Below are positions 54,575-55,145 of a DNA stretch of 55,846 nt, piece after piece. The stretch lies in contig JAABTF010000011.1 in the NCBI GenBank assembly GCA_011389965.1, forward strand, positions 1-55,846, given 5' to 3'. The notes under the pieces were generated by a model. That model did no database searches, had not been told where the DNA came from, and saw only the letters and a program-made list of their open reading frames with translations. The position numbers were made by a program, and so were the translations under genes. The DNA comes from Halothiobacillus sp. GTDB taxonomy: Bacteria > Pseudomonadota > Gammaproteobacteria > Halothiobacillales > Halothiobacillaceae. Within the stretch, counting starts at the first letter, position 1. The number at the start of each line of letters is the position of its first letter.

Positions 54575-54898
54575 TCAGATTTGGAAGTCTTCCAGTTTCT
54601 TTCCCTTGTTCAATTCATCGACCAACCAGTTGGGACGCTTGCCACGACCGGACCAAGTCTGCGACGGGTTGGCGGGATTGATAAACTTCGGCGGCAACTT
54701 CTTGCCTGCCTGCTTGGATGTCTTTTCCAGACCGAAGACATCGGCCACCGTGGTATTGAGTTCGGCAGCCAGCTCTTCGGCCTCCCGACGCAATTCCATG
54801 ACCCGATTCTGGTTGCGATCACGCAATGCCTGCTCCGCATCGCTTACCAGCTTCTTCAGCTCGTCGGCCGAAAGGTTCTGCACATCGATATTACTCAT
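54575..54898 (-). CDS. H-NS family nucleoid-associated protein
   Basis: A 107-residue DNA-bridging nucleoid protein. The N-terminal helices (about 8-55, rich in E, L and R) form the oligomerisation coiled coil. The C-terminal DNA-binding domain carries the H-NS histone-family signature TWSGRGKRPNWL (about 81-92), which inserts into the AT-rich minor groove. Such proteins silence AT-rich, often acquired, DNA. The linker (about 58-75) is basic and proline-containing. AGGAG lies 11 bases upstream of the ATG. It has its own promoter and terminator. Confidence 0.92.
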   Translation of the reverse strand: MSNIDVQNLSADELKKLVSDAEQALRDRNQNRVMELRREAEELAAELNTTVADVFGLEKTSKQAGKKLPPKFINPANPSQTWSGRGKRPNWLVDELNKGKKLEDFQI

Positions 54899-55017: not shown

Positions 55018-55063
55018 CGCAACCTAGGGAAAAGGACCGGAAAAGATAATCCGAGCCACAAAA

Positions 55064-55145
55064 CGAAAAATCCGCCCATCTGAACTGACCCTGTCAGTTG
55101 GATGGGTGTCCAACTTTCAGGGGTCAGTTCACATCCGGGCGGATT
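55064..55145 (-). terminator. fliK terminator interrupted by a 51-bp insertion in its loop
   Basis: On the minus strand AATCCGCCC (55145-55137) pairs with GGGCGGATT (55077-55069), followed by TTT, CG and TTT. The arms are nine bases and perfect, but the loop is 59 bases and holds a small mobile-element-like insert. Without the insert and one CATC copy the loop would be four bases. Confidence 0.8.
55081..55131. mobile_element. 51-bp element made of two IS-like terminal repeats, flanked by CATC direct repeats
   Basis: The left end TGAACTGACCCTGTCAGTTGGA and the reverse of the right end are inverted repeats of about 22 bases with one indel and two mismatches, and hardly any DNA lies between them. 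The ends look like IS3-family terminal repeats (TGAACTGACCCC...GTTGGACA), from memory of that family. CATC occurs on both sides (55077-55080 and 55132-55135), a plausible 4-bp target duplication. There is no transposase. It could be a miniature element or a deleted IS remnant. Confidence 0.65.

Follow-up and report, generated by a model that had tools for sequence, protein, structure and literature searches.

A 51-bp insertion in the fliK terminator loop of Halothiobacillus is probably the two-ended remnant of an IS150-like element

In the genome of Halothiobacillus sp. (GCA_011389965.1), the two arms of a terminator stem behind fliK are held apart by 51 bp, which raises the question of where these 51 bp come from and how they entered the loop. 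The window, that is, the whole stretch of DNA that was analysed, comprises 55,846 nucleotides of contig JAABTF010000011.1; the features of the locus are listed in Table 1. Transcription of fliK is directed towards the split terminator. The 9-bp stem is located 53 bp past fliK and is followed on the minus strand by TTTCGTTTT (plus-strand letters ACGAAAAA at 55063–55070), with the T-run lying just beyond 55069; this is the make-up of an intrinsic terminator, termination itself being predicted. On the plus strand, the unit begins with TGAACTGACCC and ends with GGGTCAGTTCA, and its exact 11-mer occurs in just these two places in the whole window. The initial annotation had reported the stem AATCCGCCC/GGGCGGATT split by 51 bp, with CATC on both sides and a T-run on the minus strand, and all of this was found as described.

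Table 1. Features of the interrupted fliK terminator and its neighbours
Feature	Position	Strand	Basis
H-NS family gene, past the terminator and on the fliK strand	54575..54898	-	Pfam Histone_HNS PF00816, E 1.2e-16
fliK intrinsic terminator, loop-interrupted; outer arms 55137-55145 (GGGCGGATT) and 55069-55077 (AATCCGCCC)	55069..55145	-	inspection, fold, empty orthologue in G009
Target-site duplication copy CATC	55077..55080	.	direct inspection
Miniature IS3/IS150-like element, 51 bp, left end first on the minus strand	55081..55131	-	matches to congeneric ISs
Right-end tip, 8 bp, TCAGTTCA	55081..55088	-	comparison with right end GGGGGTCAGTTCA
Left-end match, 43 bp (inverted repeat and hairpin inner arm), up to 98% identity to congeneric ISs	55089..55131	-	matches on query 50-92
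Target-site duplication copy CATC	55132..55135	.	direct inspection
fliK, C-terminal part, running off the contig end	55199..55846	-	Pfam Flg_hook PF02120, E 8.5e-20

The H-NS gene was retrieved from 10 of the 11 genomes of the genus, the own genome included. The closest congener, G009 (H-NS identity of 96%), possesses an empty orthologous terminator, AATCCGCCC-GTGT-GGGCGAATT with the T-run and without the 51 bp. By eye, the unit was found in none of the eight other congener upstream regions, which are diverged. Direct inspection and the empty site, the kind of site proposed as a check in the initial annotation, bear out its claim of an insertion into the fliK terminator loop with a 4-bp CATC duplication; the opposite pattern, with the unit in all relatives, no empty site and no other copies, was looked for and not encountered. 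The 96-nt region has a very stable nested fold (z of −7.6 on the plus and −8.0 on the minus strand, 0 of 200 shuffles being as good), as would suit a native structured RNA or a composite terminator formed with no insertion. Nevertheless, such an origin is extremely improbable in view of the empty G009 orthologue, the duplication, the 43-bp match to an IS end and the absence of the unit from the eight other congener spacers.

The 51 bp with their flanks were matched in 5 of the 11 genus genomes, the own genome included. Matches to the left end begin at 55089, and the matching IS end continues into orfA. Full-length IS copies of about 1.45 kb with matching ends, which the initial annotation had suggested looking for, are present in three congeners (G003, G005 and G010); the G003 copy measures 1454 bp and has the right end GTCCAACTTTTGGGGGTCAGTTCA. 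In the IS at locus L010, OrfA carries an HTH_28/HTH_Tnp_1 domain and OrfB an rve (DDE) domain, and the NCBIfam IS3-family model NF033516 scores 329.6 bits against a cut-off of 160. Judging from the coordinates, orfB of this IS is in frame −1 with respect to orfA, with frameshifting itself being predicted. The coding end of the same orfB (L010 2865–2954) includes an inverted repeat, AAGGCCTGAG...CTCAGGCCTT, which could serve as the IS’s own terminator. The TG...CA ends and 3–5-bp duplications place the elements in the IS3 family as IS150-like: CATC flanks the 51-bp unit, and TCAT, AATC and TGAG flank the three full ISs, all of which lie in terminator-like palindromes. The genus has 15 further right-end flanks, since 19 right-end matches include the three full copies and a weak match (L133, 77%) that are not counted here; all show a GC arm followed by a T-rich stretch (15/15, judged by eye and without a control; L136 is the weakest).

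These matches define the build of the unit. Its junction falls inside a GGG common to both IS ends, and the right end contributes 8 bp beyond this GGG; the 43-bp left-end match and the right tip are thus joined in the GGG, and the unit is a left end plus a right-end tip. The resemblance to IS3-family ends noted in the initial annotation is therefore confirmed by the 43-bp match and by the OrfA HTH, OrfB rve and NF033516 assignments. Its description of an element containing nothing except two ends needs a correction: both ends are present, but they are not equal, since 43 of the 51 bp represent the left end with its own hairpin and 8 bp the right end.

In the own genome, a single copy of the unit was found. 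No OrfB match was detected in this MAG, which is 85% complete; hence, the direct parent of the unit was not seen. One 68-bp right-end fragment (L018 1509–1576; G000:C9:17976–18043) lies beside one terminator-like arm, and neither the remainder of the IS nor the second arm was seen within that locus. A weak match of 77% is located on C92. Two matches of the 11-mer on C97 were rejected, as their surrounding sequence, judged by eye, is different. The MAG consists of 132 contigs, and contigs of G005 and G009 often terminate at this IS, so an assembler might have skipped the interior of a full IS and produced the 51 bp as an artefact. We regard this as very unlikely, because a usual read is longer than the unit, which is located inside the contig, and the same build is found in plasmid records deposited as complete. 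A remnant of another type was observed in G009 (L030 1490–1540; G009:C46:78549–78591), namely, a solitary left-end hairpin with no evident orfA behind it and a tip that is not intact.

A left-end hairpin was present in almost every full IS that was examined; in it, the left inverted repeat pairs with an inverted arm across a short loop. When the first 50 nt were compared with base shuffles, z was below −2 for 44 of 46 distinct left ends and for 3 of 43 right ends. Native arm pairs reach −23.0 kcal/mol versus −16.6 kcal/mol for swapped arms, and 33 of the 46 left ends are below the 10th percentile of swaps; native arms fold better than swapped ones, which shows that changes in the inverted repeat are matched by changes in the inner arm. 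RNAalifold on a MAFFT alignment of the 46 left ends found hardly any consensus (−0.24 kcal/mol, 4 pairs). In our view, this is due to the varying loop length, which makes MAFFT shift the arms, and the arm-swap test was used instead. The inner arm usually ends in a G-run, which is followed by a T-rich stretch and then by the start of orfA. In an intact IS, this hairpin probably keeps read-through transcription away from the transposase start, and it may serve as a replacement terminator.

Quite probably, then, an IS3-family, IS150-like IS was inserted in the fliK terminator loop and later lost its interior, and the 51 bp are what remains of its two ends. The IS would have entered the loop and left the CATC duplication. 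Being inverted relative to the left repeat, the inner arm of the left end reads in the same direction as the right end; these two sequences form a pair of imperfect direct repeats, separated by about 1.4 kb, between which slippage or recombination might occur. The resulting deletion, as deduced from its products, would remove both genes and leave the left-end hairpin and the right-end tip, 45–53 bp in total. A deletion between these points would account for the narrow spread of sizes and for the junctions, with no need for selection for mobility. The collapsed product would be a hairpin nested in the host terminator, with the terminator arms about 50 bp apart again. Since the nested hairpin lets the outer arms re-pair beside the T-run, termination was probably kept or regained.

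The choice of a terminator loop was compared with that of related ISs. Scanning GTDB species genomes with OrfB yielded at least 80 loci in Pseudomonadota and Bacillota; 27 of 80 were excluded (ends not found, length outside 1390–1600, start other than TG[AGT]NNTG, or a flank below 25 bp), and 53 were kept. Among the loci listed, a helix spanning the insertion scores at least 22, the 99% level of 4,240 random positions from the same loci, in 39 of the 53 two-flank copies; these are insertions in a palindrome loop of the IS1397 type. By hand count, 29 of these 53 listed copies are also above the 99% level of mismatched flanks (27.5; maximum 46), a level which we believe to be higher because the flanks share an AAAA-GC/GC-TTTT make-up. 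The set includes 11 copies from one genome (Vibrionales SWAT-3) and has no other IS3 subgroup as a negative control. The remaining 14 sites are below the 99% level of random positions; by eye, several of them (L077, L078 and L080) feature a palindrome with a longer loop. For most copies (45/53, counted without a control), the end of an ORF is no more than 150 bp away. No preference was found for ISs codirectional with the terminated gene: the T-run is stronger on the right in 16 copies, the A-run is stronger on the left in 24, and the two are equal in 13 (n = 53). The end-finder used for the wider IS set favours duplications, and the duplication counts of its full ISs are not used as evidence. 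The comparison shows that the IS group prefers the loops of DNA palindromes, which by eye are mostly predicted intrinsic terminators. Four Pseudomonas copies (L095, L096, L098 and L101) lie in a GTCC(A/G)C...G(T/C)GGAC-like palindrome with no T-run, perhaps another repeat family or an IS end.

Insertion within palindromes is shared with IS1397 and ISKpn1 of the same IS3 family. OrfB is 57–59% identical to that of ISKpn1-annotated copies. Klebsiella copies are located in GC palindromes resembling PUs, and an E. coli copy (L195) lies inside AAAAAGCCCTCAT...ATGAGGGCTTTTTTT. The ISKpn1 copy L196 also lies in a GC palindrome that resembles a PU. A published account names REP sequences as the targets of IS1397, ISKpn1 and ISPsy8 (PMC1525189). 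In contrast to the REP/PU palindromes of IS1397 and ISKpn1, most targets found here look like intrinsic terminators and do not belong to one repeat family; they occur in Gamma- and Betaproteobacteria and Bacillota, as well as at an alphaproteobacterial copy (L197). IS150 of E. coli K-12 is similar in OrfB (55.6% identity over 252 aa) and in its end, TGTACTGCACCC...GTTGGAC, but its left-end hairpin is weak (−8.2 kcal/mol) and its K-12 copy lies at hokA/sokA. Staphylococcal IS1272/TnSha1 of the IS1182 family targets hairpins, several of them terminators, according to PMC4923244; by the same source, it differs in cutting the stem, deleting part of it and making no duplication.

The 51-bp unit is not alone. 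Two-end pattern searches, with an allowed total length between 32 and 72 bp depending on the search, together with BLAST, which added plasmid copies, revealed about 30 independent mini sites of the same build, all of 45–53 bp, in Polynucleobacter, Rhizobiaceae, plasmids and IMG/VR contigs (L202 and L203 included). Minis were found in 5 of 186 Polynucleobacter genomes (the genus of G395), in 16 of 148 Rhizobium genomes (the genus of G423) at 17 places, where a reversed control pattern gave 0 matches, and on two IMG/VR contigs. Of 47 genomes in which an IS of the group is known, one has two different minis. The patterns found none in 26 other genomes of the family or in 368 other genomes of the class, and a phage collection gave 4 records, none covering 80% of the 51-bp unit. 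Three plasmid matches (L170, L171 and L172) were dropped, as by eye they continue into an orfA-like start.

The minis resemble the full ISs in their sites. Measured against 1,840 random positions, the helix across the unit exceeds the 99% level in 18 of 33 records, which are palindrome-loop insertions in the same sense as above, and the 95% level in 24; 15 and 9 records, respectively, are below these levels, L173 included. Duplications of 3–5 bp flank 20 of the 33, versus 45 of 1056 mismatched flank pairs. The tested minis exclude the second mini of G652. Relatives of R. leguminosarum share a conserved site that accounts for seven records (two of them records met twice), and three further records represent another site; after hand merging of orthologues, 14 of 28 sites are above the 99% level, 20 of 28 are above the 95% level and 15 of 28 have duplications. 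L176 has an altered first tip, and L167 and L168 have no clear duplication.

Two minis are identical in their left part to the left end of a sequenced full IS: L162 follows the left end of IS L110 in the same genome for 45 bp and then reads CAGTTCA, and L173 follows that of the R. beringeri IS L197 for 40 bp and then the right tip; L173 has no duplication and no helix above the null. The initial annotation had offered two origins, a residue of a collapsed IS or a minimal unit mobilised in trans. For the 51-bp copy, the former is favoured by the single copy, the left-end-plus-right-tip build and these two parent/derivative pairs. The latter, in which the ~50-bp units are true MITEs moved from terminator to terminator as minimal substrates of a related transposase, is possible but somewhat unlikely. 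The 51-bp unit is non-coding, with two inverted ends and the CATC duplication, and so resembles prokaryotic MITEs as characterised in a review (PMC10969869), where non-coding units with two IS ends and duplications are described. Both tips are intact, and four Rhizobiaceae species carry an identical 47-bp mini at four unrelated sites (L175, L186, L187 and L189), two with perfect 3-bp duplications, a distribution that also fits mobility of the minis. On the other hand, the junction is set by repeats, so that one IS lineage could yield identical minis independently. With the patterns used, no genome has two identical copies; the copy number is 1, or 2 different ones in two genomes. Unlike MITEs, the minis measure 45–53 bp, comprise one end and a short tip of the other and keep a low copy number. 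The usual intermediate of the IS3 family is a closed circle, and one of about 54 bp would be very strained. The broader proposal of widespread 45–53-bp mobile hairpins that hop between intrinsic terminator loops via IS150-like transposases in trans appears doubtful to us; to our knowledge, these would be the smallest two-ended transposable units.

The findings point to a group of IS3-family elements using the terminator loop as a landing site, which would explain spread without breaking genes, and to a built-in route for IS disappearance that leaves a nested hairpin of about 50 bp behind. In annotation, scars of this kind would be taken for unusual terminators or small RNAs. It now becomes testable how a hairpin loop is recognised by a DDE transposase and which role the conserved left-end hairpin plays. 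No account of terminator targeting by the IS3 family, or of such minis, was found in the open-access literature searched. Judged by that literature, three findings seem to be new: the general use of terminators by this group, the left-end hairpin with its covarying arms, and the repeated occurrence of ~50-bp remnants. Any of them may already be reported in other papers.

In Rhizobium, two minis are kept at the same terminator across records (L174, L177 and L199–L201; L178, L180 and L183). The flank identity between species at these two minis is about 80–91%, so that the insertions are old.
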